Shown: piece by piece, positions 1,055 to 20,265 of the stretch
Numbering within the stretch: the stretch's first letter is position 1
Layout of the letters: each line of letters opens with the position of its first letter
From: Jannaschia maritima
GTDB lineage: Bacteria; Pseudomonadota; Alphaproteobacteria; Rhodobacterales; Rhodobacteraceae
Reading direction: 5' to 3'
Length of the DNA stretch: 64,000 nucleotides
Assembly: GCF_030973515.1 (NCBI RefSeq)
Contig: NZ_JARGZA010000008.1
Coordinates: 1-64,000 of the forward strand
Position numbers and translations under genes: made by a program
Notes under the pieces: generated by a model
What the model was told of the DNA's origin: nothing
The model's database searches: none
The model's input: the letters and a program-made list of their open reading frames with translations, nothing else

Positions 1055-2107
1055 TCATCCGACCAGATCGTGGGTCAGGGCGGTGCCCCGCGCGATGGCC
1101 ACGCGGGCGGGGCGACCGAGGATCTCCGGCAACAGGGGCGGCGCCATCCCATAGCCGGGCCGGATCGAGCGGACGTTGGCGCGGGTCAACGGCTCGCCCG
1201 CCGCGATGTCGGCCACGGCATAGAGCGAACGGCGGAACACGCGGTTCGCTTCCTCGGCGGGCTTCGTGCGGTAAGACACTTCGCCCAGGGCGGCCCAGCC
1301 GTCGCGGCAATCCCGGCACAGGCGCGAGAACTCGTCCGGCTCCAGGCTGAAGGCGGCGTCTGGGCCCCCATCGGCGCGCGCCAGGGTGAAGTGCTTCTCG
1401 ATCACGGCCGCGCCCAGGGCCACGGCCGCGACCGACGTGGCGGTGCCGTGGGTGTGGTCCGACAGGCCGCCCACGACGCCGAACGCCTGCGCCAGATGCG
1501 GCAGGGTCCGCAGGTTCGACTGATCCGTCGGCGCGGGATAGCTGCTGATGCAGTGCAGGAGGATCAGCTCGTCGCAGCCGTTCCCGCGCGCCGTGGCGAC
1601 CGCGCGCTCGATCTCGCCCAGATCCGCCAGGCCGGTCGAGACGATCATCGGCTTCCCCTTGCGCGCGACATGGGCGATCAGGGCCAGGTCGTTGGCTTCG
1701 AAGGACGCGATCTTGAAGGCGGGCGCACCCAGCCCGTCCAGCAGGTCCGCCGCGCTCTCGTCGAAGGGGGTCGAGAAGATCGTGACGCCGCGGGCGCGGG
1801 CGCGCGCGAAGATCGCCTCGTGCCATTCGAAGGGCGTGTGCGCTTCGCGGTAGAGATCGTAGAGCGTGCGTCCGCCCCACGGCCCCCCCTCGATCCTGAA
1901 GTCGTCCCGATCGCTGTCGATGGTCATCGTGTCGGGCGTGTAGGTCTGCACCTTGATCGCGTCGCAGCCCGTGTCGGCGGCGGCGTCCACCAGCGCCAGC
2001 ATCCGGTCCAGCGACCCGTTGTGGTTCCCCGACAGCTCGCAGATCACGTAGGGCGGGTGGTCCGGGCCGATGGCGCGGCCGGCGATCGTCACGGTTGGGT
2101 TCGTCAT
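1055..2107 (-). CDS. pseI: Pseudaminic acid synthase (NeuB family, PseI-type)
   Basis: Condenses a 6-deoxy-diamino hexose with phosphoenolpyruvate to give the nine-carbon nonulosonate; cytosolic. The 350-residue protein has the NeuB TIM barrel at about residues 15-260 (start ICELSGNHNG, then KVQTYTPDTMT, STGLADLGEI, LHCISSYPAP, GLSDHTHG, EKHFTL) and a C-terminal SAF antifreeze-like domain at about 290-350. The ATG at 2107 was chosen because the family homology starts there; further upstream the frame overlaps the preceding gene. Start and preceding stop overlap as ATGA. It is the last gene of the operon. The neighbouring PseB and PseC make pseudaminic-type synthase more likely than sialic or legionaminic acid synthase. 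Confidence 0.9.
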   Translation of the reverse strand: MTNPTVTIAGRAIGPDHPPYVICELSGNHNGSLDRMLALVDAAADTGCDAIKVQTYTPDTMTIDSDRDDFRIEGGPWGGRTLYDLYREAHTPFEWHEAIFARARARGVTIFSTPFDESAADLLDGLGAPAFKIASFEANDLALIAHVARKGKPMIVSTGLADLGEIERAVATARGNGCDELILLHCISSYPAPTDQSNLRTLPHLAQAFGVVGGLSDHTHGTATSVAAVALGAAVIEKHFTLARADGGPDAAFSLEPDEFSRLCRDCRDGWAALGEVSYRTKPAEEANRVFRRSLYAVADIAAGEPLTRANVRSIRPGYGMAPPLLPEILGRPARVAIARGTALTHDLVG

Positions 2108-2793
2108 GTGTCGTCCTTCGGGTTCGGTCCGGGGCCTGCGTCGATCTGGCGGATGACGGTGAACGCCTCCGCCGCCGCCAGGCCCACGGAGGCGCCGCGC
2201 CATTCGGCCAGGGCGCGCAGGGCGCGGGCCGAACGGGGGTGGGGGAAGTCCCTCATCTCTGCCGCATAACAATCCAGCGCGCGCATCTTGGCGTCCAGGG
2301 TCGCCGCGATGTCGACGAAGTGCTGCGGCTGAAACGGGTCGGGGGTGCCGAAGGCCCATTCGGTCGAGGACGCGACCTCGAAGCCCAGGATCGCGCGGAC
2401 CGGGCTGCCGGACATCGGGCGGAACGCGGTCAGCACCGCCCGGTGGCAGATCCGGTGGTCCACGTTCAGGTCGCCGCCGTGATGGGTGTAGATCAGGTCC
2501 GGCGCGCCCGCCGCCCCCTCGATCGCCTGCACAACGTCCAGCAACGGCACCGCGTCGATCCGGTTGTCGGGGAAGTCCAGCTGCACCACGTCCGCCGCGC
2601 CCAGCACCGCCGCCGCCGCGCGCGCCGCGTCCCGACGCGGGGCCGCGCCCCCGTCGCCCCGCGCGCCCACCCCGTCGGTCAGGAACAGCAGCCGGACCCG
2701 GTCGCCCGCCCCCGCATGCCGCGCGATCGTGCCGCCGCAGCCCAGGGCCTCGTCGTCGGAATGGGCGGCGACCACCAGGACGTCACGGGGCAT
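2104..2793 (-). CDS. PIG-L/LmbE family deacetylase
   Basis: Zinc-dependent N-deacetylase family acting on N-acetyl amino sugars and related conjugates. The 229-residue protein has metal-binding AHSDDE at 10-15 (Ser12 replaces the usual Pro of AHPDDE) and a second metal motif around H104/H105, D112 and H113 (HHGGDLNVDH). It lies between a formyltransferase-like gene (11-base overlap) and pseI (ATGA overlap), so it is translated with the nonulosonate pathway. The inferred role is removal of an acetyl group from the sugar, exposing an amine for another acyl group such as formyl. PIG-L proteins are not part of the classical six-enzyme Pse pathway. The family call is firm; the substrate is unproven. 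Confidence 0.85.
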   Translation of the reverse strand: MPRDVLVVAAHSDDEALGCGGTIARHAGAGDRVRLLFLTDGVGARGDGGAAPRRDAARAAAAVLGAADVVQLDFPDNRIDAVPLLDVVQAIEGAAGAPDLIYTHHGGDLNVDHRICHRAVLTAFRPMSGSPVRAILGFEVASSTEWAFGTPDPFQPQHFVDIAATLDAKMRALDCYAAEMRDFPHPRSARALRALAEWRGASVGLAAAEAFTVIRQIDAGPGPNPKDDT

Positions 2794-3481
2794 GGTCGGC
2801 CTTCTGGGCGGGGCCGTCGTCGTGGATCGCCAGGCGGTAGCGACGGCCGCGATGCTCGAAGAAGGCCGGATAGCGTTCGTTGTCCACCACGCGCAGCAGG
2901 TCGAACTGCGCCGCCAGGGTCGCGTGGGGGTCCAGGCGGCTGTCGGCCGGACGGCGGCGGGGATGCCAGCTGGGTGTGCCGGTCTGTGGACGTCCCACGG
3001 GGGGGGCGGGACGGCGCAGGACGTCCAGGCATATCTCCACCGTGGCCGCCCCCTGCGCGGCCCGCAGGGCGTCGCACAGCTCGGTCCCGTCCAGGACGAT
3101 CTCGGTCGTGGCGAAGACGTCGCCTTCGTCGGCCGCCTCGGCCGCCTCGATCAGCGAGACGGGGATGCGATCCGCCCCGTCCAGCACCGCCCAGGTCATC
3201 GGCGCGAAGCCGCGGCCCCGGGGCAGCGCGCTTTCGTGGACCACCAGGGTCAGGCGGTTGCGGGCCAGCACGTCGGGGGGGACGATGTGAACGCAGCCTA
3301 AGAGGAATGCGACCTCGCCCCGGGGCACGTCGTCCGCCCGGCGCGCCAGCACGCATTCGTCGCCATCGGCCCGGACCGCCGCCACCAACCGTTCCGCATG
3401 CGGCAGGATCCAGCTGTCGTTGTCCACGAGCGCGCAGATCCGCCGCGGCCGACGCCACCAATCCGGCGCCGTTCCGGTCAT
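2783..3481 (-). CDS. Formyltransferase-like protein (second of a tandem pair)
   Basis: This 232-residue protein resembles sugar N-formyltransferases related to methionyl-tRNA formyltransferase, which transfer formyl from N10-formyl-THF to an amine. It has the active-site His in VVHESALPRGRG (about 80-91) and the conserved Asp in ADEGDV (about 117-122). A C-terminal segment around RVVDNERYPAF resembles the formyltransferase C-terminal domain. The N-terminal region (ICALVDNDSWILPHAERLV) is a Rossmann-like start. The ATG at 3481 overlaps the upstream stop as ATGA. It is about the same size as its upstream neighbour but clearly diverged, so the two probably modify different positions or substrates. 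Catalytic completeness was not verified by alignment. Confidence 0.7.
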   Translation of the reverse strand: MTGTAPDWWRRPRRICALVDNDSWILPHAERLVAAVRADGDECVLARRADDVPRGEVAFLLGCVHIVPPDVLARNRLTLVVHESALPRGRGFAPMTWAVLDGADRIPVSLIEAAEAADEGDVFATTEIVLDGTELCDALRAAQGAATVEICLDVLRRPAPPVGRPQTGTPSWHPRRRPADSRLDPHATLAAQFDLLRVVDNERYPAFFEHRGRRYRLAIHDDGPAQKADHAP

Positions 3482-4170
3482 GCGCCGTCGTCCCGCCGGC
3501 GGATGGTGGCCCGGGCCGTCACCGTGCCGTCCGGCGTCAGGGCGGCGTCCCGCAGCGTGATCCGCAGTTCCCCATGATCCAGATAGGCGTGCGGATAGCC
3601 GGGCGCGTCCAGCATGCGGATGTGGTCGTGGATCCCCTCGGGCGTGGCGGTCCCCGGCAGGACGCTCTGAGCCGGGGTGCGGCGGGCGAAGGCCTCCTGA
3701 CCGGTGGCGTCGGGCTGGGGTTCGGGCCGCGGTTCGTCGCGCGCGATGCGGGCCATCAGGTCGATCGCCCGGTCCGCCATGCGCGCGAAGATCGCGTGGG
3801 CGGGTCCGTCCAGCGACAGCGGCGCCTTCAGATAGACCGGCCCCGCATCCAGAACGGCCGTCATGCGCAGCGCGGTCAGCACGGTCTCGCGGTGGCCGCG
3901 CGCGATCAGGTTCTGCAGCGGGCTGCCGCCGCGGCCATAGGGCACGTCGGTCATGTGGAAGCACACGCATTCCGTGGCCGCCAGCACCGCTTCGGGTACG
4001 ATATGCGACCAATGCGGAAAGAACGCATAGCGGGGGCGTACGGCCTCCACCGCGGCGGCCAGGTCGGCCTTGACCGTGACGAGCGTCCAGGTGCCCGGCA
4101 GCTCGGCCCGTCGGGCGGAGAAGGCCTCCAACGCCCAGGGCCTGTCCGTGGCATACAGATAGCGCGTCAT
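3478..4170 (-). CDS. Sugar N-formyltransferase-like protein (first of a tandem pair)
   Basis: A 230-residue member of the formyl transferase family (N-terminal formyl_trans fold plus a small C-terminal domain). The active-site region reads CFHMTDVPYGRGGSPLQN (about 70-87), with the catalytic His at 72, and the conserved Asp lies in VLDAGPVY (106-113). The C-terminal segment GIHDHIRMLDAPGYPHAY matches the extension found in ArnA- and MTF-like formyltransferases. It overlaps pseG (ATGA) and the next formyltransferase-like gene. Standing where a pseH acetyltransferase would be expected, it is the best candidate to N-acylate the 4-amino group of the PseC product with formyl. That role is inferred from context. 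Confidence 0.75.
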   Translation of the reverse strand: MTRYLYATDRPWALEAFSARRAELPGTWTLVTVKADLAAAVEAVRPRYAFFPHWSHIVPEAVLAATECVCFHMTDVPYGRGGSPLQNLIARGHRETVLTALRMTAVLDAGPVYLKAPLSLDGPAHAIFARMADRAIDLMARIARDEPRPEPQPDATGQEAFARRTPAQSVLPGTATPEGIHDHIRMLDAPGYPHAYLDHGELRITLRDAALTPDGTVTARATIRRRDDGA

Positions 4171-5195
4171 GCCGCCGCCCCCCGCGCCGTCCGGGCCAGG
4201 ATGACGTCGGCCACCCGCCCCGCGCCCTGCCCGTCGCAGAGTGCCGCCGCCGCCGCCGTCATCGCGGCGCGCGCGTCGTCGTCCAGGAGCGTATCCACCG
4301 CTCCGCGCAGCGCGGCGTCGTCCTGCGCCACCGCGCGGGCGGCCCCGGCCCGGTCCAGGGCGCGCGCGATGCCCCGCTGGTTGTCGGCCCAGGCCAAGGT
4401 CGCGGCGGGCAGGCCCAGGCAGCAGCGTTCCCACGAGGTCGAGCCGGCCGCCCCCACCGCCAGGTCGGCCTCCGCCATCAGCGCGGCCATGCGGTCGGTG
4501 CCGACCAGCAGGCGGGCCGGTCCGGGCCAGGCCTCGACGCGTATGCGCACCGCGTCCAGGTGGGGCGCGGCGGGCCCCAGCACCACGGTCAGGTCCAGCG
4601 CGGCGGCGGGCGGGTGGCCCGCCAGCGCGTCCAGCGCCCAGCCGGTCGTGTCCCCCGGATCCGTTCCGCCCATCGTCACCAGCAGCCGCCGCGCGGCACG
4701 GTCCCGGCGCGCGGTCAGGGCGGCGTCCCGGGCCCGCTCGAAGTCCGGGCGCAGCAGCGCGTGGTCCGGCCCGATCAGCAGCAGCGCGTCCGCCGGGACG
4801 CGGTCCGCGTAATCCGCCGCCGCCGCGCCCAGGTTCTGATCCAGCAGGATGTCGCAGCGATGGTCCCGGCCCACGTCGTCGATCGTCATGACGGGAACGG
4901 ACATCGCGGCCTCCCACGCCGCGCCCAGGTCGTAATGGTCCACGATCACGCGGTCCGCGTCCCGCGCCAGCCGGGCGGTCGCGGCGGCATCCGCATCCTC
5001 GGGCATCACCGGCAATGCGTTGCAGGCGAAGCCCCCGGCGCGCACGGCGTCCATCATGTGGCCCGGCCGGTCCGCGCAGGCGAAGGACACCCGCGCGCCC
5101 CGATCCCGCAACGCCCCCGCCAACGCCAAACAACGCGCTACGTGCCCCGCGCCGATGTCGATCGCGGCGTCGGCGCGGATCAGCACGCGGGTCAC
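4167..5195 (-). CDS. pseG: UDP-2,4-diamido-2,4,6-trideoxy-L-altrose hydrolase, PseG
   Basis: PseG removes UDP from the nucleotide-activated diamido sugar before condensation with PEP. The 342-residue protein has the typical N-terminal GxGHVARC motif (His18 in IDIGAGHVARC) and the VDHYDLG segment at about 85-91. The GT28-like C-terminal half carries MGGTDP (175-180) and AAGSTSWERCCLG (249-261). A GTG start at 5195 is favoured because VTRVLIRADAA aligns with PseG N-termini; it overlaps the stop of pseF as GTGA. The alternative ATG at 5237 would lie inside pseF. Neighbours on both sides belong to the same pathway. Confidence 0.88.
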   Translation of the reverse strand: MTRVLIRADAAIDIGAGHVARCLALAGALRDRGARVSFACADRPGHMMDAVRAGGFACNALPVMPEDADAAATARLARDADRVIVDHYDLGAAWEAAMSVPVMTIDDVGRDHRCDILLDQNLGAAAADYADRVPADALLLIGPDHALLRPDFERARDAALTARRDRAARRLLVTMGGTDPGDTTGWALDALAGHPPAAALDLTVVLGPAAPHLDAVRIRVEAWPGPARLLVGTDRMAALMAEADLAVGAAGSTSWERCCLGLPAATLAWADNQRGIARALDRAGAARAVAQDDAALRGAVDTLLDDDARAAMTAAAAALCDGQGAGRVADVILARTARGAAA

Positions 5196-5872
5196 GCCGC
5201 GGCCCCCGCGCGGAACAGGGCCTCGGCGCGGTCCCAATCCTCGGGCGTGTCGATGTCCTGGACCCGGTGGCGCGGCAGCGGCAGGGCGGCGGAATCCGGT
5301 CCGATCAGGGGCGCCTCCCCGAACCAGGCGTCACGCGTCCCCCAATAGAACTGCCCCGCGTCGTGCCACGTCTCCGGCAGGTCCTGGCTGCGGGTCAGGG
5401 CATGTTCGGGGTGCAGCATCTCCATCCGTCCGTCGCGGCGCAGGGTCACGGCCCGTTGCACGGGAAACGGAAACGTCGCGACGGGCAGCACGAAGCGCGC
5501 CCCCGATCGCCGCAACAGGGCCAGCCCCGCCGCCAGATCCGCCGCCCGCACGAAGGGGGCGGTGGCATAGAGGCAGCAGACCGGTCCCGCCCCCGCGTCC
5601 AGAGCCTCGATGGCGTGGCGGATGACGGGAATGGTGGGGGTGTGGTCGTCGGCCAGGGCGGCGGGCCGCGCGAAGGGCACATGGGCCCCCGCCGCGCGGG
5701 CCACCTCCGCGATCTCGGGGTCGTCGGTGGAGACGGCAACCCGGTCGAAGACGCCGCTCTCCAGGGCCGCGGCGATGGACCACTCGATCATCGGACGACC
5801 GGCGAAGGGCCGCACGTTCTTGCGCGGCACCCGCTTGGATCCGCCCCGCGCGGGGATCACGCAGAGCGTCAC
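5192..5872 (-). CDS. pseF: Pseudaminic acid cytidylyltransferase, PseF
   Basis: Activates the nonulosonate as its CMP derivative, the donor for glycosyltransfer. The 226-residue protein starts with the CMP-sialate synthetase signature PARGGSKRVPRKNVR (7-21), followed by WSIAAALESGVFDRVAVSTDD. The length is normal for the family (about 230). The start is GTG at 5872, overlapping the pseC stop (GTGA); a longer frame exists but runs through pseC. It sits between pseC and pseG in a translationally coupled chain. Whether the substrate is an acetylated or formylated pseudaminic acid cannot be read from the sequence. Confidence 0.9.
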   Translation of the reverse strand: MTLCVIPARGGSKRVPRKNVRPFAGRPMIEWSIAAALESGVFDRVAVSTDDPEIAEVARAAGAHVPFARPAALADDHTPTIPVIRHAIEALDAGAGPVCCLYATAPFVRAADLAAGLALLRRSGARFVLPVATFPFPVQRAVTLRRDGRMEMLHPEHALTRSQDLPETWHDAGQFYWGTRDAWFGEAPLIGPDSAALPLPRHRVQDIDTPEDWDRAEALFRAGAAA

Positions 5873-7017
5873 GCCAGTTGCCGCCGCAGCGCGCGGGTCA
5901 CGGCCTCCTGCTGATCGTCCGTCATCTGCGCGAAGAGCGGGATGGAGATCGCGCGCGCGTAGTAGTCCATCGAAGCGGGGAACGCGTCCGGCGCGAAGCC
6001 CATCGCGGCATAGTAGGGCTGCGTGTGGATGGGGATGTAGTGCAGGTTCACGCCGATCCCGTCCGCCTGCAGGCCCTCGAACACGGCGCGGTGGCGGGAC
6101 GGGTCGTCCAGCCGCACGACGTAGAGATGCCAGGACGACGACGCCCCCGCCCGCCGCCCCGGCAAGGCCAGCGGCAGACCCGCCAAAGCCGCGTCGTAGG
6201 CGTCGGCCCGCGCCATGCGGGCGGCGACGTAATCGTCCAGCCGCATCATCTGCGACACGCCCAACGCGGCCTGCATCTCCGTCATGCGGTAGTTCAGGCC
6301 CAGGGCGACCTGCTGGTAGTACCACGGCCCGTGGGAAGCTTCGGTCATCGCCGCGGGGTCGCGGGTGATGCCATGGCTGCGCAGCATCGCCATGCGCCGG
6401 GCCAGGGCCGCGTCCTGGGTGACGGCCATGCCCCCTTCGGCGGTGGTGACGATCTTCACGGGGTGGAAGCTGAACACCGTGATGTCCGCCTGCCCCGGCG
6501 CGCCCACGAAGGCGCCGTCCCACCGCGCGCCGATGGCATGGCTGGCGTCGTGGACGACCTTGAACCCGTAGCGGTCCGCCAGCCGCCGGATGCCGGCCAG
6601 GTCGGGGGGCAGCCCGCCCATCGCCACGGGCACCACGACCTTGGGCAGCGTGCCCGCCGCCTCCGCCCGTTCCAGCTTGGCGGCCAGGGCATCCACGGAC
6701 ATGGCGAACGTGTCCGGTTCGATGTCGACGAAATCGACCGACGCCCCGCAATAGAGGGCGCAATTGGCCGAGGCCACGAAGCTGATGGGCTGCGTCCACA
6801 GCCGGTCGCCCGGCCCCAGCCCCAGCGCCAGGCAGGCGACATGCAGCGCCGAGGTGGCCGAGTTCATCGCCACCCCGTGCGCCGCGCCGACATGGCCCGC
6901 GACCGCGTCCTCGAAGGCGGGGACCCGGGGCCCCTGGGTCAGGAAGTCGGACCGCAGCACCGCCGCCACGGCGTCCAGGTCGGCCTCCGTGATGTCCTGA
7001 CGGCCATAGGGGATCAT
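5869..7017 (-). CDS. pseC: UDP-4-amino-4,6-dideoxy-N-acetyl-beta-L-altrosamine transaminase, PseC
   Basis: PLP-dependent sugar aminotransferase of the DegT/DnrJ/EryC1 family that aminates C4 of the PseB product. The 382-residue protein shows IPYGRQDITEADLDAV at the N-terminus, the PLP-binding Asp in HDASHAIG (156-163), and Lys188 in SFHPVKIVTTAEGG as the Schiff-base lysine. The C-terminal GVNLHYIPIHTQPYY segment is typical of PseC. The gene starts at an ATG one base after the pseB stop. It catalyses the second step; the amine it creates would be the target of the downstream formyltransferase-like enzymes. Confidence 0.92.
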   Translation of the reverse strand: MIPYGRQDITEADLDAVAAVLRSDFLTQGPRVPAFEDAVAGHVGAAHGVAMNSATSALHVACLALGLGPGDRLWTQPISFVASANCALYCGASVDFVDIEPDTFAMSVDALAAKLERAEAAGTLPKVVVPVAMGGLPPDLAGIRRLADRYGFKVVHDASHAIGARWDGAFVGAPGQADITVFSFHPVKIVTTAEGGMAVTQDAALARRMAMLRSHGITRDPAAMTEASHGPWYYQQVALGLNYRMTEMQAALGVSQMMRLDDYVAARMARADAYDAALAGLPLALPGRRAGASSSWHLYVVRLDDPSRHRAVFEGLQADGIGVNLHYIPIHTQPYYAAMGFAPDAFPASMDYYARAISIPLFAQMTDDQQEAVTRALRRQLA

Positions 7018-8016
7018 TCACAGAACCCCGATCTTGCTGCGGTTCGCCTCGATCCAAGTGGCCAGCGCCGCCGGATCCATCCAGTCGTCGTTGGTGTCGG
7101 ATGCATAGCGGAAGCCTTCCGGAACGGGCGTGCCGTCCTTTATGCGCGCGGGGCTGGCGGACCAGTCGTTGATCGCGGGCAGGATTTTGAAGTGCTCAAG
7201 ATACTCGAACGTATGCGCCGCGTCCTCGGGGCCGATCATCTGCTCGTGCAGCTTCTCGCCGGGGCGGATGCCCACGACGCGCTGCGCGGCCTCGGGCGCC
7301 ACGGCGCGCGCGATGTCGGGCACGGTCATGGACGGGATCTTTTTCACGTAGATCTCGCCCCCTTCCATGTCGGCCAGGGCGTGCCAGACAAGCTCGACCC
7401 CCTGCTCCAGGGTGATCATGAACCGCGTCATGCGCGGATCCGTGATCGGCAGCGTGCCAGTATCCTTCACGGACAGGAAGAACGGGACGACCGATCCGCG
7501 CGAGCCCATCACGTTGCCATAGCGCACGACGCTGAACGTGGTCCCGTGCTCGCCCGAATAGGCGTTGCCCGAGACGAACAGCTTGTCGGAGGCCAACTTC
7601 GTCGCGCCATAGAGGTTCACGGGGCTCGACGCCTTGTCGGTGGACAGGGCGACGACCCGCTTGACCTTCTTGTCGATGCAGGCGTCGATCAGGTTCATCG
7701 CGCCCATCACGTTGGTCTTCACGCATTCGAAGGGGTTGTATTCGGCCGTCGGCACGATCTTCGTGGCGGCCGCGTGGACCACGAAGTCGACGCCGTCGAG
7801 CGCGCGGTACAGCCGTTCGCGGTCGCGCACGTCGCCGATGAAGAACCGCACGCGCGGATCGTCGCCGAACCGTTTCGCCATCTCCCACTGCTTCATCTCA
7901 TCGCGCGACAGGACGATGATCTTGCGGGGACCGAAGCGTTCCAGGGTCATGGGCAGGAAGGCGTGGCCGAACGACCCCGTGCCGCCCGTCACCAGGATGG
8001 TACTGTCTCTAAGCAT
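7018..8016 (-). CDS. pseB: UDP-N-acetylglucosamine 4,6-dehydratase (inverting), PseB
   Basis: First step of pseudaminic acid synthesis: dehydration of UDP-GlcNAc with C5 inversion. This is an extended SDR of 332 residues (usual about 330). It has the nucleotide-binding GGTGSFG (11-17), the catalytic STDKAS (125-130) and Y136GATK140, plus the family-typical AAATKIVPTAEYNPFE (82-97) and IRPGEKLHEQMI near the C-terminus. It is the promoter-proximal gene of the minus-strand operon. The 354-bp region upstream is shared with the divergent Wzc gene. The inverting C5 type separates it from the retaining LegB/PglF enzymes, judged on overall similarity. Confidence 0.92.
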   Translation of the reverse strand: MLRDSTILVTGGTGSFGHAFLPMTLERFGPRKIIVLSRDEMKQWEMAKRFGDDPRVRFFIGDVRDRERLYRALDGVDFVVHAAATKIVPTAEYNPFECVKTNVMGAMNLIDACIDKKVKRVVALSTDKASSPVNLYGATKLASDKLFVSGNAYSGEHGTTFSVVRYGNVMGSRGSVVPFFLSVKDTGTLPITDPRMTRFMITLEQGVELVWHALADMEGGEIYVKKIPSMTVPDIARAVAPEAAQRVVGIRPGEKLHEQMIGPEDAAHTFEYLEHFKILPAINDWSASPARIKDGTPVPEGFRYASDTNDDWMDPAALATWIEANRSKIGVL

Positions 8017-8370: not shown

Positions 8371-10359
8371 ATGAACACCGTATCCAATCGCGCGGACCGA
8401 CGCGGCGGCCCCATGTCCACCGTGGAAGGGATCCAGCCGGTCCCCGGCCCCTCGGGCGCCGGTGAGGAGATCGACCTCGTCGCGCTCCTCGGCACGCTTT
8501 GGCGCGGCAAGCTGTGGATCGTCCTCGCCGGCATCCTGGCCGTATCGATCGGGGGGTTCTACGCCTTCCGCGTCGCGGTGCCGACATACAGCGCCACGGC
8601 CGTGGTCTCGCTGACCGGACAGGAACAGTCGATCGTCGACTTCGAGAGCGTGCTGTCCAGCCTCGGCGGGGACCAGGCCTCCGTCAACACCGAGATCGAG
8701 GTGATCCGCTCGCGTCAGTTGATCGAGATGGTCGTCGACCACCTGGACCTGCTGGACGACCCGGAGTTCAACGCCGCGGTCCGTCCCCATGAACCCGGCC
8801 TCCTGGACCGCCTGCCCTTCTACGAGGCGGCCGGGCCGGAGCCGCCGCCGACGCCCGAACGCCAGCTCGACCGTACCGTGGACGCGGTGCTCGACGTGCT
8901 GTCGATCAGCAACATCCGGCAAAGCATGGTCTTCCACATCACCGCCACCTCGGAGGACCCGCGCAAGGCGGCCGCGCTCGCCAACGCCGTGGCCCAGGCC
9001 TACATCGACGACCAGGTCGAGGCGAAGCTGGAGGCGACGGCCCGCGCCACGGAATGGCTGGGCGAGCGGATGGTCGAGTTGCGCGGCGATTTTGAGGATG
9101 CCCAGGCGGCGCTTCAGGACTTCAGCACCAACTCCGAGATCGTGACCTACGAAGGCCTCGCGGTGCTGAACCGGCAGATCAACGACCTGCGCGACCGGCT
9201 GTCCGGGGTCCGCGAGCAGCTGGACGCGACCGAAGGCACCGCACGCACCCGTCTGGAGGCGCAGGCGGTCGCCCTTCGGCGGACGCTGGACGACCTGGAG
9301 GAACGCATCGGCGCGCAGTCCGTCGCCCTGGCGGAGCGCCAGGAGCTGGAAAGCCAGGTGGAGCAGTTCCGCGTCCTGTTCGAGTATTTCCAGACCCGCC
9401 TGCGGGAAACCGCCGTGCAGCAGGGGATCCAGCAGGCCGACGCCCGCGTGCTGTCTCGTGCGGTCGTGCCGTTCGATCCGGTCGCCCCCCGAAAACCCCT
9501 CATCGTGGCCCTTTCCCTGATCCTGGGTCTGCTCGCGGGCGCGGGTGGCGTCCTCGCCAACGAACTGCGCCAGACCGGAGTGCGCAGCGGCGACGAGTTG
9601 GAGAAGATGTCGGGGCTCGTGGTCATGGGGCAACTCCCGCGGACCCCCGAGATCCGCAAGCGCGACAGCATCGCCCGCTACCTGCACGACAACCCGACGT
9701 CGCGATTGGCCGAGGCGATCCGCAACCTCCGGGTGTCCATCCTGCGATCCGGCTTCGACGCGACCTCCCGCGTCATCCTGTCGACGTCGTCGGTGCCCGG
9801 CGAGGGAAAGACGACCCAGTCGACCGCGCTCGCCCAGAGCTTCGCCGACACCGACATCCGGGTGCTGCTGGTCGAATGCGACATCCGGCGGCGTACGATG
9901 TCGCGCGCGATGGGGTTCTCCGACGAGTTCGGCCTGCTGGCGGTGCTGTCCGGCGAGGCCGAACTGGCCGACATCGTGCAGCGCGACGACAACATGCCCG
10001 GCGTGGACGTCCTCGTAGGCGACCGGGGCAAGACGAACCCGGTGGACGTGTTCTCGTCGGACGCGTTCGACCGCTTCCTCGACCGCGTCCGCCGCGACTA
10101 CGACGTGGTCGTGCTCGATGCCCCGCCTGTCCTGGCGGTGCCCGATGCGCGCGTGCTGGCGCCCAAGGCCGATACGGTCCTGTATGCGGTGAAATGGAAC
10201 GATACGCCCCGTACGGCGGTGCGCGAAGGGCTGCGTCTGCTGGAAACCGTGGGCGTGCGGCCTTCGGGACTGGTGCTGACCCAGGTCGATCTGAAGGGGC
10301 TGGCCCGCTATGGCTATGGCGATTATGGCCGGTACGGGCAGGGCTATTATGGCGATTGA
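8371..10359 (+). CDS. wzc: Polysaccharide co-polymerase / tyrosine autokinase (Wzc/Etk-like)
   Basis: Inner-membrane protein that controls chain length and couples polymerisation to export. The 662-residue protein has a Wzz domain with TM1 at about 47-66 and TM2 at about 376-396. Between them is a long periplasmic segment with heptad-like helices (about 200-345). A cytoplasmic BY-kinase domain follows: Walker A SSVPGEGKTT with Lys480, Walker A' LLVECDIRRR near 497-506, Walker B DVVVLDAPPV. The C-terminal tail is Tyr-rich, with six Tyr in RYGYGDYGRYGQGYYGD, the autophosphorylation cluster. The start could also be the ATG at 8413 (MSTVEG). It heads the export block of the plus-strand unit. No low-molecular-weight phosphatase partner is in the window. 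Confidence 0.92.
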   Translation: MNTVSNRADRRGGPMSTVEGIQPVPGPSGAGEEIDLVALLGTLWRGKLWIVLAGILAVSIGGFYAFRVAVPTYSATAVVSLTGQEQSIVDFESVLSSLGGDQASVNTEIEVIRSRQLIEMVVDHLDLLDDPEFNAAVRPHEPGLLDRLPFYEAAGPEPPPTPERQLDRTVDAVLDVLSISNIRQSMVFHITATSEDPRKAAALANAVAQAYIDDQVEAKLEATARATEWLGERMVELRGDFEDAQAALQDFSTNSEIVTYEGLAVLNRQINDLRDRLSGVREQLDATEGTARTRLEAQAVALRRTLDDLEERIGAQSVALAERQELESQVEQFRVLFEYFQTRLRETAVQQGIQQADARVLSRAVVPFDPVAPRKPLIVALSLILGLLAGAGGVLANELRQTGVRSGDELEKMSGLVVMGQLPRTPEIRKRDSIARYLHDNPTSRLAEAIRNLRVSILRSGFDATSRVILSTSSVPGEGKTTQSTALAQSFADTDIRVLLVECDIRRRTMSRAMGFSDEFGLLAVLSGEAELADIVQRDDNMPGVDVLVGDRGKTNPVDVFSSDAFDRFLDRVRRDYDVVVLDAPPVLAVPDARVLAPKADTVLYAVKWNDTPRTAVREGLRLLETVGVRPSGLVLTQVDLKGLARYGYGDYGRYGQGYYGD

Positions 10360-10464
10360 GGGACGCGGCGGCCACAGGTCGCCGCCGCCTCGATGACCGT
10401 GGTACCCTCGGGAGGAACGATCCGTATCCCCGACCGGGTGCGGGGGAACGGTGGAGTACGGTGC

Positions 10465-12618
10465 ATGGGGGCGGGATCGGCTTTGCTGCGGGCGATGGCG
10501 GGGCTTGCGCTGATGGCCACATGTGCCACGGCCCAGACGACGCGCGTCTTCGACACGTCGCCCGACCGGCCCCGCCTGACCTGGAACCTCTACGGTGCGC
10601 CCGGCCTGATCGACATGCCAACGGCGCGCGGCGCGCCCGACGGCGAACTTGCGTTGACGGTCAGCCATTTCGGTGGGCTGACCCGCAGCACCCTTACCTT
10701 TCAAATCCTGCCACGTCTGACGGGGTCGTTCCGCTACAGTCATCTGGAGAGATTCTCGGACCGAACGTCGGGCAACTACGATCGGTCCTTCGATCTGCGC
10801 TTCCGACTGCTCGACGAAGGACGATGGGGCTCCTGGACGCCTGCCGTGGCTGTCGGGTTGCAGGACTTCATCGGGACCGGATTGCAAACAGGCGAATATG
10901 TCGTTGCCACGAAAGCGATCACTCCGCGCTTCGATGCCAGCGTCGGCATCGGCTGGGGCCGGTTGGCGGGCGTTGGCTCGTTCGACAATCCACTTCGCGT
11001 CTTCGGTGACAGCTTAGCCGACCGACCCGGCCGCTCCGCCGGCGATCGGGGGGGCAATGCCAATTTCAACAGGTTGTTCCGCGGCAATGCCGCGATCTTC
11101 GGGGGAGCGTCATGGCAGGCGTCTGAGCGGTTAACCCTGTTGGCCGAATACTCGTCGGACGCCTATGCCCGGGCGCAGGCGGACGGTCTGTTCGAACGAC
11201 GCAGCCCGATCAGCTTCGGGTTCGACTACCAGGCGACGCGCCGGATGTCCGTCGGCGGCTACGTCATGCATGGGGACACCGCGGGGCTCCGCTTCACCTA
11301 TGCCCTGAACCCGGCCCGCCCCGATATCGCCGGCGGCGCGGAGGTCGGGCCCCCGCCCCTGACGCCGCGCCCGAGCGCCCGGTCCCAAGCGTTCTGGACC
11401 GCGCGGGCCACCGCCGAGCGGGTGCTGCGCGACCGTGTCGCCGAGGAACTGGAGACCGTCGACCTGAAGCTCGAAGCCCTGTCCGTCGGGCCGAACCAGG
11501 CCACGCTGCGCCTCCGCAACCCGACCTACGGGAACGAGGCGCAGGCCATCGGCCGGGCGGCGCGCGCGATGGCGCGGACGTTGCCCGCCGGGGTCGAGAC
11601 GTTCCGCATCGTGCCGGTGGTCGACGGACTGCCGGCTGCGACGATCACCCTGCGCCGCGGGGATCTGGAAGCGCTCGAGAACGATCCGGACGGTTCGTTC
11701 CGCATGCTGGCCCGAACCCGGATCGACGCCGCCGCGCCGGACGAGGATCCCGGGACCTTCGCGGACGGGCTGTACCCGCGCTTCGAATGGGACGTGGGGC
11801 CCTATCTGACCGCCAGCACCTTCGATCCGACGAACCCGCTGCGTCTGGATTTCGGCCTGGCCCTAGACGTCGCGTACCACGTCGTGCCGGGCCTCCTGGC
11901 CGAAGGACGCATCCAGGGCCGCGCCCTGGGCAACCGCGACGATCTGGTTCGCGGGTCGGGCTCGGGCGGACTGCCCCGCGTGCGCACGCTGGGGCCCAGG
12001 TACAACGATGCCGACGTCACGATGCCGCATGCGACCCTCACGCATCTGAGCCGACCGGCCGACGACGTCTACGCAAAGGCGACGGCCGGCTACCTCGAGC
12101 CGATGTACGGGGGCCTGGTCGGGGAACTGCTCTGGAAGCCCGCGAACAGTCGCCTCGCCCTCGGCGTCGAGGTGGCCTATGTGAAGCAACGCGACTTCGA
12201 TCAGGACCTGGGGTTCCGCGACTACGACGTCGTCACCGGACATGCCAGCGCCTACTATCGCTTCGCCAACGGGTTCAAGGGACAGCTCGACGTCGGGCGC
12301 TACCTGGCGGGGGACGTGGGCGCGACGCTGCGCGTCGACCGGACCTTCGCCAACGGGTGGTCGGTCGGGGCCTACGCCACCAAGACCGACGTCTCCTCGG
12401 AGGAGTTCGGCGAGGGTTCGTTCGACAAGGGCATCCTGATCGAGATTCCGATCTCGTGGTTCGGCGGCCAGCCCGAACGCAGCAGGCGGGGGATCCGCAT
12501 CCAACCGATCCAGCGCGACGGAGGGGCGCGCTTGTTCGTCCGCGACCGTCTGGAAGGCCTGGTGGAAGGGTACGACCGGGTCGACCTGGACCGCCGGTGG
12601 GGCAAGTTCTGGCGATGA
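10465..12618 (+). CDS. Outer-membrane exopolysaccharide protein YjbH/GfcD-like
   Basis: Beta-barrel-rich outer-membrane protein of the YjbH family (GfcD in group 4 capsule operons). The ATG at 10465 gives a clean signal peptide (MGAGSALLRAMAGLALMATCATAQ) and has a GGTGGAG upstream; the in-frame ATG at 10393 would place 24 extra residues before it. The mature protein begins with the family-typical NLYGAPGLIDMPTAR and contains the recurring aromatic strands of a porin-like barrel in both halves (about 40-300 and 450-690). The end overlaps the next gene as ATGA. It probably works with the YjbF/GfcB-like lipoprotein downstream. The exact biochemical role of YjbH is not established. Confidence 0.85.
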   Translation: MGAGSALLRAMAGLALMATCATAQTTRVFDTSPDRPRLTWNLYGAPGLIDMPTARGAPDGELALTVSHFGGLTRSTLTFQILPRLTGSFRYSHLERFSDRTSGNYDRSFDLRFRLLDEGRWGSWTPAVAVGLQDFIGTGLQTGEYVVATKAITPRFDASVGIGWGRLAGVGSFDNPLRVFGDSLADRPGRSAGDRGGNANFNRLFRGNAAIFGGASWQASERLTLLAEYSSDAYARAQADGLFERRSPISFGFDYQATRRMSVGGYVMHGDTAGLRFTYALNPARPDIAGGAEVGPPPLTPRPSARSQAFWTARATAERVLRDRVAEELETVDLKLEALSVGPNQATLRLRNPTYGNEAQAIGRAARAMARTLPAGVETFRIVPVVDGLPAATITLRRGDLEALENDPDGSFRMLARTRIDAAAPDEDPGTFADGLYPRFEWDVGPYLTASTFDPTNPLRLDFGLALDVAYHVVPGLLAEGRIQGRALGNRDDLVRGSGSGGLPRVRTLGPRYNDADVTMPHATLTHLSRPADDVYAKATAGYLEPMYGGLVGELLWKPANSRLALGVEVAYVKQRDFDQDLGFRDYDVVTGHASAYYRFANGFKGQLDVGRYLAGDVGATLRVDRTFANGWSVGAYATKTDVSSEEFGEGSFDKGILIEIPISWFGGQPERSRRGIRIQPIQRDGGARLFVRDRLEGLVEGYDRVDLDRRWGKFWR

Positions 12619-13280
12619 GCGTGCGGCGTATCCTCGGACCGGCGGGTCTTGCCCTCGTCCTGGCGCTCGCGTCCGGCTGCGACCGGATCGTCGATGCGGT
12701 CCCTTCGGTCGGCGCCCTCCTCGAACGCGCGGACGGCCCGCCCCCCGCCGCCGCCATCCTGGCGACTCTGTCGCGTCCGGGCCTCGCGCCGTTCGGCTCG
12801 GAGCAGCTCGTCGCCGTCCTGGAACGGCGCGACGTGGCCGCCGTCCTCCTGCCCGGCCCCACGGTGGCGGGCACGACGACCTGGATCGCCGCGGATGCGA
12901 CCACCGTCTCGGTCCGACACGATGGGCTGGTGGTCGCCACGCGCGGGTTGGCCCCCGACCTGATGCGGGCCGACCTGTCCGAGATCGCGTCCGCGCTGGA
13001 TGCCGGTGCGGGACCGGCCACGCGGGTGCACCGCCATCTCGACGGTCTCGACCGCGAGGTCGTCGCCGCCTACGCATGCCGGATACGGACGGAAGGGCCC
13101 GGAACCGTGACGATCCTGGGCAGGGCGATCCCCGCCCTCCACCTGACGGAGCGTTGCGCGAACGGTCGCGTCCGCTTCCGGAACGACTATTGGCGCGACC
13201 GGACCGGCCGATACGTGCGGTCCCGTCAGTGGATCGGCGAAGAAGCGGGCCATATCCGCCTCGAATACATCGGACCTTGA
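12615..13280 (+). CDS. YjbF/GfcB-family lipoprotein
   Basis: The 221-residue protein has a lipoprotein signal (GLALVLALASGC, lipobox Cys at about 22), so it is expected to be lipid-anchored in the periplasm. The remainder resembles the YjbF/GfcB family: a beta-rich periplasmic domain with the C-terminal NDYWRDRTGRYVRSRQWIG segment, where this family has its best-conserved Trp/Arg positions. It is coupled to the yjbH-like gene by an ATGA overlap. In E. coli yjbEFGH and gfcABCDE the equivalent gene also neighbours the barrel protein. No yjbG/gfcC homologue is visible here. Confidence 0.78.
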   Translation: MSVRRILGPAGLALVLALASGCDRIVDAVPSVGALLERADGPPPAAAILATLSRPGLAPFGSEQLVAVLERRDVAAVLLPGPTVAGTTTWIAADATTVSVRHDGLVVATRGLAPDLMRADLSEIASALDAGAGPATRVHRHLDGLDREVVAAYACRIRTEGPGTVTILGRAIPALHLTERCANGRVRFRNDYWRDRTGRYVRSRQWIGEEAGHIRLEYIGP

Positions 13281-13349
13281 CAAGGCACCGCCGAGTCAAG
13301 GCAAGAAGCAGCTAGCATTCACCACGATGCCCCCAACCGGAGATATGTC

Positions 13350-13688
13350 ATGAAAATCATCCTTCCCGCGCTCCTGGCCGCGGCCCTCGCCCTTCCGGCC
13401 GCCGCGCAGAACCTGTCCCCCGACGTGCAGGCGCAGGTCGTGCCGGGCGCGAACCTGACCCAGGTGGCGGCCGCCAACAACGTTCCGCTGCAGGACCTGG
13501 TCGCCTATGCGCAGAGCCAGGGCTTCACGACCACGACCATATCCGGTGGTGGTGCCGCGGCCGGTGGTGTCGCGTTGGGCGGTCTGGGCACCGCGGGTGC
13601 GGTCGTCGCGGGCGTGGTCGTCGTCGCCGGGGTGGCCGCCGCGCTGGACGACGATTCGTCGTCTTCGACCACCACGACCACGAACTGA
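13350..13688 (+). CDS. Small secreted or membrane protein with Ser/Thr tail (YjbE/GfcA-like by position)
   Basis: The 112-residue protein has a signal peptide (MKIILPALLAAALALPAAAQ). A LysM-like short helical segment follows (NLTQVAAANNVPLQDLVAYAQ, in fragments). Then comes a Gly/Ala/Val hydrophobic stretch at about 65-97 long enough to span a membrane, and finally an acidic-polar tail DDDSSSSTTTTTN. A GGAG sits nine bases before the ATG. The terminator at 13727-13755 ends its transcript. Small Thr-rich proteins (YjbE, GfcA) occur in the related enterobacterial operons. This one is assigned to that role by position and composition only, since no sequence similarity could be tested. Confidence 0.6.
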   Translation: MKIILPALLAAALALPAAAQNLSPDVQAQVVPGANLTQVAAANNVPLQDLVAYAQSQGFTTTTISGGGAAAGGVALGGLGTAGAVVAGVVVVAGVAAALDDDSSSSTTTTTN

Positions 13689-13726
13689 TCCCTCCGGGCG
13701 CGACGCGCCCCGGCGAGGGACCGGAG

Positions 13727-13755
13727 GAGCCGATCTGCAACAGGTCGGCTCTTTT
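13727..13755 (+). terminator. Rho-independent terminator after the small Thr-tailed protein gene
   Basis: Stem GAGCCGA / TCGGCTC (7 bp) with an 11-base loop, followed directly by TTTT. It separates the wzc-yjbH-yjbF-small protein unit from wza, so wza either relies on read-through or has its own promoter in 13756-13828. Confidence 0.75.
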
Positions 13756-13828
13756 CGTGTCGGGCGTCGATCCGCTCCGATCCCCGATCGATAGAGGTTG
13801 GACGTCGATCGAGCATTTCGGAGGTTGC

Positions 13829-15169
13829 ATGCGTTTCCCCCTGGTTCTGGCATTCTGCATCGCCCTTACGGGGTGCGGCGTGATTTACGTCTCGCCCTCC
13901 GTCCGCGACGTGGCCGCGGCCGGTCCCGTGCGCGTCCTGCCGCTGACGGCCGAAACGGTGCTGGTCGCCAACCGCTCCGATTACCGGGCCAAGACCCTGC
14001 CCGATGCCTTCTTCGCCACCGCGGGGACGCAGGCGAGGGCCGCTCCGGCGGGCGCGGTGCCGCCGTCCGCCCTCGACCGGCAGGTCCGGCCCGACGCGTT
14101 GCGTCTGATCCCGCCCCCGTCCGCCCCGATGGGGCCCTACATCATCGGCGTGGGCGACATCATCATCCTGGCGACCCGCTCCGGTGCCGACACGGTCGAA
14201 CAGCTGTCGGGCCTGCTCGCCTCCCAGAACCAGCGTCAGGGATACACGGTCCAGGACGACGGCGCGATCGCGGTGCCCGACGTCGGTCGGGTCCGCCTGG
14301 CGGGCCTGACCATCGACGAGGCGGAGGCGGCCGTCTTCGAAAGCCTCGTGGAGGCACGGATCACGCCCGCCTTCTCGCTCGAGATCGCGGAGTTCAACTC
14401 GAAGAACGTGTCCGTCGGCGGGGCCGTGGGCCAGGCCGCCCTGGTCCCGATCACCCTTCGGCCCCTGACCCTGACCGAGGCGCTGACCGCGGCGGGGGGC
14501 GTGCAGACCCGCGACGAGGAGTTCACCTCGATCCGCATCTACCGCGATGGACAACTCTATCAGATACCCTTGGAGGACTATCTCGCCCGCCCCGATCTCC
14601 AAAGCCTTCGCTTGGCGTCCCAGGACAGCGTGTATGTCGACGTGGCCTACGACACGGAACGGGCGCTGGCGTACTTCCAGGAACAGATCACCCGCGCGGA
14701 TTTCCGCCAGGGGCAACGGATCCAGGCCCTGTCGGAACTGCAGACGGCGGTCGACCTCCGGCGGGGCGAACTGATCGAGCGTCGCAGCAACTTCCAGACG
14801 CGGGCCGAACTGGATGCCGTCGATCGCGACTACGTGTACCTGACCGGGGAGGTCACGCGCCCGGCCCGCTTCCCCCTGCCCTTCGGCCGCACCGCGAACC
14901 TGGCGGATGCGCTCTACGACAACGACGGCTTCGACCTCGAGACCGGGAACTCGCGGCAACTGTACCTCCTGCGTGGTGCGGACGCGTTCGGCGGCGTCAC
15001 GGCATATCAACTGGACGCTTCCAACGCCGCGAACCTGATCCTCGCCACGAGGCTGGAACTGCGACCCAACGACGTGATCTTCGTGGCCGAGCAACCGATC
15101 ACGCGATGGAACCGGTCGATCACCCAGATCTTCCCGCAACTCGTCACGCTCGGGAACCTGACGAACTGA
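13829..15169 (+). CDS. wza: Polysaccharide export outer-membrane lipoprotein (Wza/GfcE-like)
   Basis: Forms the outer-membrane export channel for polysaccharide. The 446-residue protein begins with a lipoprotein signal (MRFPLVLAFCIALTGC), and a GGAGG lies five bases before the ATG at 13829, which decides this start over an upstream in-frame ATG at 13757. The poly_export domain (about 105-190: GPYIIGVGDIIIL, QDDGAIAVPDVGRVRLAGLT) is followed by SLBB-type repeats, the first at about 200-245 and the second around YVYLTGEVTRPARFPLPFGRT. The C-terminal NRSITQIFPQLVTL is the short helix expected for the Wza transmembrane alpha-barrel. It works with the Wzc-like kinase encoded upstream. Confidence 0.9.
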   Translation: MRFPLVLAFCIALTGCGVIYVSPSVRDVAAAGPVRVLPLTAETVLVANRSDYRAKTLPDAFFATAGTQARAAPAGAVPPSALDRQVRPDALRLIPPPSAPMGPYIIGVGDIIILATRSGADTVEQLSGLLASQNQRQGYTVQDDGAIAVPDVGRVRLAGLTIDEAEAAVFESLVEARITPAFSLEIAEFNSKNVSVGGAVGQAALVPITLRPLTLTEALTAAGGVQTRDEEFTSIRIYRDGQLYQIPLEDYLARPDLQSLRLASQDSVYVDVAYDTERALAYFQEQITRADFRQGQRIQALSELQTAVDLRRGELIERRSNFQTRAELDAVDRDYVYLTGEVTRPARFPLPFGRTANLADALYDNDGFDLETGNSRQLYLLRGADAFGGVTAYQLDASNAANLILATRLELRPNDVIFVAEQPITRWNRSITQIFPQLVTLGNLTN

Positions 15170-15368
15170 GGGACACGACCCCACCGCGAAGCCGGGCCGA
15201 GGGCGTCAGGTCGACCCGCCGATCGGTGCCCGGGCCCGGAACGCGACCCCTCCATCCGATCCCGTCGCGGGAGGTTCCGGGACGCGCGACGCACCGGCGG
15301 CACGCGGGACCGCGCCCGGAACCGACGCGCGCGACCCGATCCGATCGACGCCATTCCTTTCGCGACCT

Positions 15369-16643
15369 ATGGAGAACCCCGCTGACACAAACGTCGGGGA
15401 CGACCGGATGACACCACCCAAGCGGATCGTGATGACCGGCGCGACCGGCTTCGTCGGGTCGCAGGTCGTGCCGATCCTGCTGGAGAAGGGCGTCGAGGTC
15501 CTCGTCGTGAGCCGCGATCCGATGCGGGCCCCGAAACGCTTCCCCAATTGCAGGACGATCGGCTACGACGCCCTGGCGGACGAAGCCCGCGACACCGACG
15601 TGCTCGTGCATATGGCGACGCGAAACAACGACCGCGGGGGCGACGACGCGGATTTCCGGGCGGCAAATGTCGATCTGTTCCGTCGCGTCCTGGATACGGC
15701 CTGCGCCGCTGGTATTGGCCTGGTCGTCCACCTGTCGTCCCTGCACGCGCTCGACCCGGCAGATGCGTCTCCCTATGCGAAGTCGAAGCGCGAAGCGGAC
15801 GCCTTGGCCAGGGCGACCGTCGATCCCAGGGTGGTGACGCTCCATCTCGCGGCCGTGTACGGACGAGGGCCGGATGGCGCGCACGTGTATGCCGGGCGCT
15901 TGAAGACGATCGAGCGGCTCCCAAACGCGCTGCGCCCGGTCGCGTTCGCTTGCCTATCCGCGCTGCGCCCGACCCTTTCGGCGGACCGTCTGGCCGAGCA
16001 TCTGCTGATGCCGCCGGGGGAGGACGCGATCCTTTCGGATGGTCAGCGAGACAACACGGTCTACGCGGCCATTACGGCGATCCTGGATGTCGTGGTCGCC
16101 GCCGCGATCTTCATCCTGTTGTTCTGGTTGCTCCTGCTGATCTGGGCCGCCGTTCGGCTCGACTCGCGAGGCCCCGGCCTGTTCGTGCAGGAGCGCGTGG
16201 GTCGCGATGGAAAGCACTTCTCGTGTTGGAAGTTCCGGACGATGCGGGTCGGCGTCCAGCAGGCGGGAACGCATGAATTGTCCGGTTCGGCCGTGACCCG
16301 GGTGGGTCGCATCCTCCGACCCCTCAAGCTCGACGAACTACCGCAGGCCTGGAACCTCTTGAACCGGAGCATGTCGATCGTGGGTCCGCGACCCTGCCTC
16401 CCCGTTCAGCGCGAACTCGTGGATGCACGCGACCGACGCGGCGTCCTCGACATACGACCCGGGATCACCGGCCTTTCGCAAGTCGAGGACATCGACATGA
16501 GCACGCCATGCAGGCTCGCCCGACGGGACGCCGACTACGTCGCGCTCCGCAGCATTCCCCTCGATCTGAAGCTCATGGTCCGGACGGTCGGGGGCGGCGG
16601 ACGCGGGGATCGGACGGATCGGATGTCCGACGAGCCCCGATAG
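15369..16643 (+). CDS. Fused SDR epimerase/dehydratase and initiating phosphoglycosyltransferase
   Basis: Two domains sit in one 424-residue frame. Residues about 17-205 are an extended SDR: MTGATGFVGSQVV, the motif HLSSLHALD, and catalytic-type YAKSK. This part is shorter than a full epimerase (about 300) and may lack much of the substrate-binding half. Residues about 230-415 are a monotopic phosphoglycosyltransferase of the WcaJ/PglC/WbaP catalytic-core type. They show a hydrophobic re-entrant helix (AAIFILLFWLLLLIWAAV), VQERVGRDGKHFSCWKFRTM, LKLDELPQAWNLL, SIVGPRPCLP and RPGITGLSQV. The latter transfers sugar-1-phosphate to undecaprenyl phosphate, starting repeat-unit assembly. No stop or frameshift separates the domains. 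An internal ATG start for the PGT alone cannot be excluded. Confidence 0.82.
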   Translation: MENPADTNVGDDRMTPPKRIVMTGATGFVGSQVVPILLEKGVEVLVVSRDPMRAPKRFPNCRTIGYDALADEARDTDVLVHMATRNNDRGGDDADFRAANVDLFRRVLDTACAAGIGLVVHLSSLHALDPADASPYAKSKREADALARATVDPRVVTLHLAAVYGRGPDGAHVYAGRLKTIERLPNALRPVAFACLSALRPTLSADRLAEHLLMPPGEDAILSDGQRDNTVYAAITAILDVVVAAAIFILLFWLLLLIWAAVRLDSRGPGLFVQERVGRDGKHFSCWKFRTMRVGVQQAGTHELSGSAVTRVGRILRPLKLDELPQAWNLLNRSMSIVGPRPCLPVQRELVDARDRRGVLDIRPGITGLSQVEDIDMSTPCRLARRDADYVALRSIPLDLKLMVRTVGGGGRGDRTDRMSDEPR

Positions 16644-16721
16644 GACCCGAAGCGCGCCGAGGCCGACTTACGGCTCCGCGCCGGAACCTTTAACGTCGGT
16701 CCCAAGCAGGAGCGGTCAGGC

Positions 16722-17996: not shown

Positions 17997-18006
17997 AGGC
18001 GTTGGA

Positions 18007-20096: not shown

Positions 20097-20265
20097 GGGG
20101 GTCCGGCCGAGCCGTCACCGATCCCGCGCGCCCGGCGGCGTCCTTCATGCCGATCCGGGTCGCGGGACGGGCGTCCCGTCCGATCCGGGAGGTATGGCTC
20201 ATTCCCGCCACGACCTGTACCGCTCCCCGCGGGCGGAGCGCGGACTATTGCGAAGGCGGACGACC

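Follow-up and report, generated by a model that had tools for sequence, protein, structure and literature searches.

The canonical pathway to pseudaminic acid (Pse) comprises PseB, PseC, PseH, PseG, PseI and PseF, and the formyltransferase PseJ presumably acts on the product of PseC. Sugars of known structure include that of Pseudoalteromonas distincta KMM 638, with a 7-formamido group, and that of Psychrobacter marincola KMM 277, with 5-N-lactoyl and 7-N-acetyl groups. Variants with other acyl groups on N5 are known chemically: the accessible parts of the literature describe a 5-N-lactoyl Pse (PMC7281560), the Pse5(beta-hydroxybutyryl)7Fm of the pilin of Pseudomonas aeruginosa 1244 (PMC6222762) and, on legionaminic acid, a 5-N-formyl group (PMC6137143). 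In the literature found, which was available in part, no enzyme is named that removes the original acetyl group. An operon of Jannaschia maritima, at positions 1055 to 8016 of the first 64,000 nucleotides of contig NZ_JARGZA010000008.1 (this whole stretch is hereafter the window), shares five of the six canonical enzymes; it differs from the canonical pathway in lacking PseH and in encoding a predicted deacetylase of the PIG-L/LmbE family and two proteins of formyltransferase fold, designated FT1 and FT2. Judged by its gene content, the operon probably directs the synthesis of CMP-5,7-di-N-formyl-pseudaminic acid (Pse5Fm7Fm). The existence in nature of both 7-N-formyl groups and N5-acyl replacement, as given in the accessible parts of PMC7281560 and PMC6222762, was counted in favor of this reading; the pilin sugar of P. 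aeruginosa 1244 resembles Pse5Fm7Fm in bearing non-acetyl groups on both nitrogens, with formyl on N7, but its N5 substituent is hydroxybutyryl and not formyl. Read leftwards from 8016 to 1055, all on the minus strand, the genes are:

7018-8016, minus strand: pseB, UDP-GlcNAc 4,6-dehydratase (inverting); TIGR03589, 512.9 bits, cut-off 407.75
5869-7017, minus strand: pseC, UDP-4-amino-4,6-dideoxy-L-AltNAc transaminase, source of the C4 amine; TIGR03588, 502.8 bits, cut-off 423.5
5192-5872, minus strand: pseF, CMP-pseudaminic acid synthetase, GTG start; TIGR03584, 304.1 bits, cut-off 205.7
4167-5195, minus strand: pseG, UDP-sugar hydrolase, GTG start; TIGR03590, 254.9 bits, cut-off 153.55
3478-4170, minus strand: FT1, formyltransferase-fold protein of 230 aa; PF21553 (Formyl_trans_C_2), 61.5 bits; Cys70-x-His72 and Asp108
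2783-3481, minus strand: FT2, formyltransferase-fold protein of 232 aa; PF00551 (Formyl_trans_N), 34.9 bits; Val80-x-His82 and Asp118
2104-2793, minus strand: predicted PIG-L/LmbE-family deacetylase; PF02585, 87.5 bits, cut-off 28.2, E 1.4e-24
1055-2107, minus strand: pseI, pseudaminic acid synthase; TIGR03586, 485.3 bits, cut-off 340.25

The core of PseB, PseC, PseG, PseI and PseF is complete, all five proteins scoring above their NCBIfam equivalog cut-offs, and the operon holds the sole match in the genome to PseC at E<=1e-40 and to PseI at E<=1e-60 (contig C44 in our numbering). At all gene junctions but one (six of seven), start and stop codons overlap by 4-11 nt; pseB and pseC abut. An original prediction for this DNA had named these five enzymes without a recognisable PseH, together with two tandem formyltransferase-like genes and a PIG-L gene, and both statements held, the latter through Pfam matches and AlphaFold2 folds; its operon, set at 2104-8016, covered seven of the genes and left pseI (2107-1055) outside. 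In the route proposed here, PseB and PseC would convert UDP-GlcNAc to UDP-4-amino-4,6-dideoxy-L-AltNAc, and FT2, in place of PseH, would formylate its C4 amine, which is N7 of the final sugar. PIG-L would strip the C2 N-acetyl group inherited from GlcNAc and FT1 would formylate the amine thereby freed, N5 of the final sugar, a pair of reactions that could fall at the UDP-sugar, free-sugar or a later stage; PseG, PseI and PseF would finish the CMP-sugar, probably for the adjoining exopolysaccharide.

PseH was found neither in the cluster nor, above the TIGR03585 cut-off, anywhere in the genome, which is 99.98% complete. The best two matches, on contigs C11 and C24 and not on the Pse contig C44, reached 28.5 and 22.5 bits, where 93.1 is required. 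A PseH encoded elsewhere, the possibility raised in the original prediction, was thus rejected, the genome offering at most two sub-threshold acetyltransferases of the GNAT family away from the Pse contig. This negative result is not absolute, because the in-cluster GNATs of eight related loci range from 22.0 to 148.8 bits with this model; the cut-off is strict: of 13 FT1/FT2 genomes 1 passes it and 8 have a match at E<=1e-6, and of 26 FT2 genomes 2 pass it and 7 have a match at E<=1e-10. Outside the window, at G000 contig C8:34714-38830 (locus L179), eight consecutive divergent matches of the RimJ/L type of GNAT were observed within approximately 4 kb, their open reading frames (ORFs) matching one another at roughly 31-46% identity.

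The functions proposed for FT1 and FT2 derive from the company that their genes keep. FT1 was searched irrespective of PIG-L in class and phylum genome samples (E<=1e-15), with matches in 6 of 385 and 8 of 398 genomes, respectively, the J. maritima genome being in both (13 genomes in total); it also occurs in [Synechococcus] sp. NIES-970, on a plasmid, the second of two plasmid hits being a weak match to Met-tRNA formyltransferase (Fmt). PIG-L was present in all 13 FT1 loci of these samples and in the FT1 locus of the NIES-970 plasmid, and FT2 in three of the 13 genomes (the window, L043 and L044). An FT2 alignment used to scan GTDB genomes returned 240 relatives, distributed among Pseudomonadota, Bacillota, Bacteroidota, Cyanobacteria, Verrucomicrobiota, candidate phyla and one archaeon, among others, the best 80 of which were analysed as FT2 loci. 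Ninety-three loci were labelled, the window being excluded and L032, a copy of L033, left out: 39 encode FT1, FT2 and PIG-L, 10 FT1 and PIG-L without FT2, 21 FT2 and PIG-L without FT1, 22 FT2 alone, and one, at a contig end, FT1 and FT2 without PIG-L. Later counts refer to 91 loci, after removal of L054, which comes from the genome of L044, and L104, apparently a copy of L102. Among these, PIG-L accompanies FT1 in 48 of 49 cases, at a distance of 1.3 kb or less in 47, and the single miss (L063) stops at the edge of its contig.

A control sample selected on PseI as the sole criterion gave the same association. It comprised the 51 of 289 class genomes with PseI above its cut-off, the window among their loci, and PIG-L was found in all six FT1 loci vs. 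2 of the 45 without FT1 (Fisher p 1.6e-6), the six including the window and two near-identical loci; with the window removed, the counts were 5 of 5 vs. 2 of 45. Only the window among the 51 holds FT1, FT2 and PIG-L together, the combination being rare in its own class. Among the 91 loci, gathered as relatives of FT1 or FT2, the full set occurs in 38, from several phyla, and uniqueness to this genome was consequently rejected.

These associations bear on the alternative that the C4 amine alone is formylated, giving Pse5Ac7Fm, with PIG-L and FT1 serving another sugar of the neighboring exopolysaccharide. Pse5Ac7Fm is a known natural sugar according to the accessible part of PMC7281560, and the 22 of 93 loci that hold FT2 with neither FT1 nor PIG-L show that this gene content is common. 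Nevertheless, FT1 overlaps both pseG and FT2, and PIG-L both FT2 and pseI, by 4-11 nt, and PIG-L accompanies FT1 across Pse clusters of several phyla; a mono-formylated product is thus considered unlikely.

The division of labor between the two formyltransferases was addressed by comparing loci in which one of them is missing. Nine of the 10 FT1 loci devoid of FT2 encode a PseH-like GNAT, which in four is joined to PseG as a fusion, and TIGR03585 was the top model for six of the eight such GNATs tested (40.6-148.8 bits). As FT1 and PIG-L thus sit beside a PseH-like enzyme, FT1 does not appear to be the replacement for PseH. FT2, on the other hand, occupies the slot in which PseH-like GNATs sit: of 83 FT2 genes, 52 come directly after PseG and seven share its ORF. 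Of the 22 loci with FT2 but no PIG-L or FT1, 11 hold PseB, PseC, PseG and PseI. A GNAT fused to PseG or within 300 nt of it was found in 21 of 34 loci without FT2 vs. 6 of 69 with it, and a GNAT anywhere in the locus in 37 of 49 vs. 24 of 81, samples that were drawn differently, such that p-values are descriptive; the profile for GNATs started from domains fused to PseG, was rebuilt with hits of the same loci and may gather GNATs other than PseH. In the PseI control, the two loci with FT2 lack a GNAT, while 37 of the 49 without FT2 have one. With FT1 and PIG-L found beside GNATs and FT2 in the slot next to PseG, FT2 is proposed as the substitute for PseH and FT1 as the partner of PIG-L. Single ORFs encoding PseG then FT2, or PseG then a GNAT and FT2, were observed at L103:7975, L114:7798, L105, L109 and L117; these ORFs parallel the PseG-GNAT fusions of L031, L034, L035 and L047.

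An exchange of roles, with FT1 acylating the amine made by PseC and FT2 acting with PIG-L at C2, would agree with the gene order of the window, where FT2 adjoins PIG-L and FT1 adjoins PseG, and with the 21 of 93 loci that hold FT2 and PIG-L without FT1. It would not account readily for FT1 and PIG-L in loci that have a PseH-like GNAT and lack FT2, nor for FT2 without PIG-L or fused to PseG, and is regarded as very improbable. Several observations weigh against the assignment of FT2 to N7 and FT1 to N5, the order PseG-FT1-FT2 of the window, in which FT1 rather than FT2 adjoins PseG, being one of them. Six loci (L087, L099, L105, L109, L111 and L117) hold FT2 together with a GNAT at PseG, one acyltransferase too many, and G124 and G347, the loci of which are near-identical, encode FT1 and PIG-L with no PseH match at E<=1e-6 and no FT2, the FT2 profile scoring highest there on FT1 itself (67.6 bits vs. 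296-338 for true FT2). Just one of the eight tested GNATs from FT2-less FT1 loci passes the PseH cut-off, short contigs (for example L051, L057, L070 and L100) carry some of the 22 loci with FT2 but no PIG-L, absence there being of little weight, and the J. maritima genome has 13 Acetyltransf_3 matches, such that a generic GNAT could acetylate. The formyl chemistry is likewise not assured, because both clades lack the Asn of the catalytic motif, as follows.

Sugar and Met-tRNA N-formyltransferases employ an Asn-His-Asp catalytic triad. This triad was not traced in PMC12650200 or PMC10924466. AlphaFold2 models of FT1 and FT2 (mean predicted local distance difference test scores of 93.9 and 91.3, respectively) bore out the formyltransferase folds expected of them, all 50 structures listed for each model being formyltransferases or formyl-folate enzymes. 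FT1 falls below the Formyl_trans_N cut-off (21.0 vs. 26.1 bits) and above that of Formyl_trans_C_2 (27); FT2 falls below the latter (15.2 vs. 27 bits) and above the former. The nearest solved chain to FT1 is 1zgh of Clostridium thermocellum (E 1.7e-41, template-modelling score 0.92), which is also the nearest solved sequence to FT2 (E 2.1e-12); a profile built from 25 FT2 sequences returned 1zgh (1.6e-20), ArnA, Fmt and VioF. PseJ (PDB 6ci2, 6ci4, 6ci5 and 6edk) belongs to the same formyltransferase family as FT2 but is distant, ranking below these four (E 4.2e-6).

In the column of the catalytic Asn, FT1 has Cys70 and FT2 Val80, with the His and the later Asp retained; the C-I-N-V-H of Met-tRNA formyltransferase (4iqf and Fmt rows) corresponds to C-V-C-F-H in FT1 and T-L-V-V-H in FT2. 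Eight Fmt proteins chosen by their Asn-containing motif served for placement of the column only, independent support coming from the 4iqf alignment. The position is occupied by Cys (30), Val (13) or Ile (5) in FT1 loci (n=50) and by Val (76), Ile (4) or Ala (1) in FT2 loci (n=83), with two unread in each, and the Asp was detected by motif search in 47 of 50 and 80 of 83. The N-H-D site anticipated in the original prediction therefore failed to appear in either protein, clade-wide. Its proposals that the C4 amine is formylated and that PIG-L with a second formyltransferase exchanges the other N-acetyl group drew support from gene co-occurrence, being now assigned to FT2 (2783-3481) and FT1 (3478-4170), respectively, and are qualified by the incomplete triad.

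Consequently, the Asn-less clades might move another small acyl group, or might draw on some donor that is not N10-formyl-tetrahydrofolate. No readable row (48 of 50 FT1 and 81 of 83 FT2) has the Asn that Met-tRNA formyltransferase 4iqf possesses, yet fold, His and Asp are retained, and 1zgh, the solved relative of FT1, is equally Asn-less, having been deposited under the name of a Met-tRNA formyltransferase; a different acyl group or donor is given a small probability, and transfer of formyl groups is preferred. 1zgh shares the x-F-H-M-T-D motif of FT1 and, being near the FT1 clade by both sequence and motif, is possibly a misnamed sugar formyltransferase. In a tree of 142 proteins, the 82 FT2 sequences were split off by a branch with support of 100/97 and the 50 FT1 sequences by one of 93/97, in an analysis for which the bootstrap had not settled and the Fmt rows included long, unsure branches. 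On the sequence evidence, the two clades are old, and their separate placement led to rejection of the idea that a single formyltransferase had recently been duplicated in tandem.

PIG-L retains the metal site H11-x-D13-D14 with H113, residues that do not vary among the 13 cluster members aligned. It shares PF02585 and the HXDD + H motif with the LmbE/PIG-L deacetylases BshB and MshB, the motif being given for the family in the accessible part of PMC4101496. The protein scores far under the BshB1, BshB2 and MshB equivalog cut-offs, and its substrate would appear to differ from those of BshB and MshB. Where PIG-L occurs without FT1, other candidate acylation genes were observed (a domain search of chosen neighbors in 14 of the 21 such loci and L147; in L117 the neighbor, Uma2, is irrelevant): an AMP-binding ligase and short-chain reductase in L092, and ATP-grasp proteins in L053, L089, L095, L097 and L147, an inositol-monophosphatase-like protein adjoining PIG-L in all of the latter except L089. 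Further neighbors comprise HisH/HisF-like proteins (L053), WbqC (L112 and L118), a hexapeptide transferase (L078), a 2-hydroxyacid dehydrogenase (L088) and methyltransferases (L075, L101, L105 and L129). The ATP-grasp proteins, with or without the phosphatase-like protein, possibly constitute a separate N5-ligation module, and the neighbors of PIG-L fit the 5-N-lactoyl and 5-N-hydroxybutyryl-7-N-formyl variants as these are described in the accessible literature. Given how often PIG-L clusters without FT1 hold genes for other ligases or for acylation, PIG-L may open a general route to N5 variants; this is a lead rather than a test, as there was no control set of clusters lacking PIG-L.

The window begins at base 1 of a 183-kb contig. 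Beyond the operon, on the opposite strand (8371-23481, plus), lies an exopolysaccharide cluster encoding Wzz/tyrosine kinase-like and YjbH proteins, an export protein, an initiating sugar transferase and two group-1 glycosyltransferases, along with three ORFs (17018-18010, 18923-20281 and 20268-21386) without a Pfam match at E<=1e-5. Since these genes adjoin the operon, its sugar probably enters the exopolysaccharide. A glycosyltransferase-like protein present in 17 related loci had no match among window ORFs of at least 150 aa. A tblastn search with FT1 (FT2 was not part of it) found no match in 50,697 phage records, PHROGs holds no family for FT1 or FT2, and a phage origin of the formyltransferases was thus rejected; for PIG-L there is one match, to a PHROG whose function is unknown. 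PseI is split into two ORFs from L083:10344 and L103:11049 onwards, the gene being interrupted or the assembly faulty. L030 (G058), from the same family as the window, holds FT2 without FT1 or PIG-L and has two PseI/NeuB-like genes, the first with 35% identity to PseI of the window.

No published description of a formyltransferase/PIG-L pair in Pse synthesis was found, a weak negative as the search reached only part of the literature. The original prediction had suggested that paired formyltransferases with PIG-L may be new; the combination has proved widespread, as counted above, and no publication on it was found. In the portion available, a study of Aeromonas pse islands reports deacetylases, one strain having a GlcNAc-PI de-N-acetylase, with no role assigned and no formyltransferase (PMC7874193), and neither PMC7371886 nor PMC13317340 mentions formyl, deacetylase, LmbE or PIG-L; one apparent literature match to the combination was rejected, LMBE there being an accession prefix.

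PIG-L is hence a concrete candidate for removal of the original acetyl group, with a partner rule that involves either FT1 or another ligase. Two clades of formyltransferases devoid of the customary catalytic Asn are also brought to notice, one probably represented by 1zgh under a doubtful name. More broadly, and with slightly less than even confidence, PIG-L may be a general gateway to the N5 diversity of Pse, stripping the GlcNAc-derived acetyl group for re-acylation by interchangeable modules: FT1 for formyl, an AMP-ligase with a short-chain reductase for hydroxyacyl, an ATP-grasp ligase paired with a phosphatase-like protein for aminoacyl or related groups, and WbqC among further ones. The FT1 and FT2 proteins would then be two undescribed Asn-less clades of sugar N-formyltransferases that jointly make Pse5Fm7Fm, and gene content would permit prediction of the acyl groups on both N5 and N7 of Pse.

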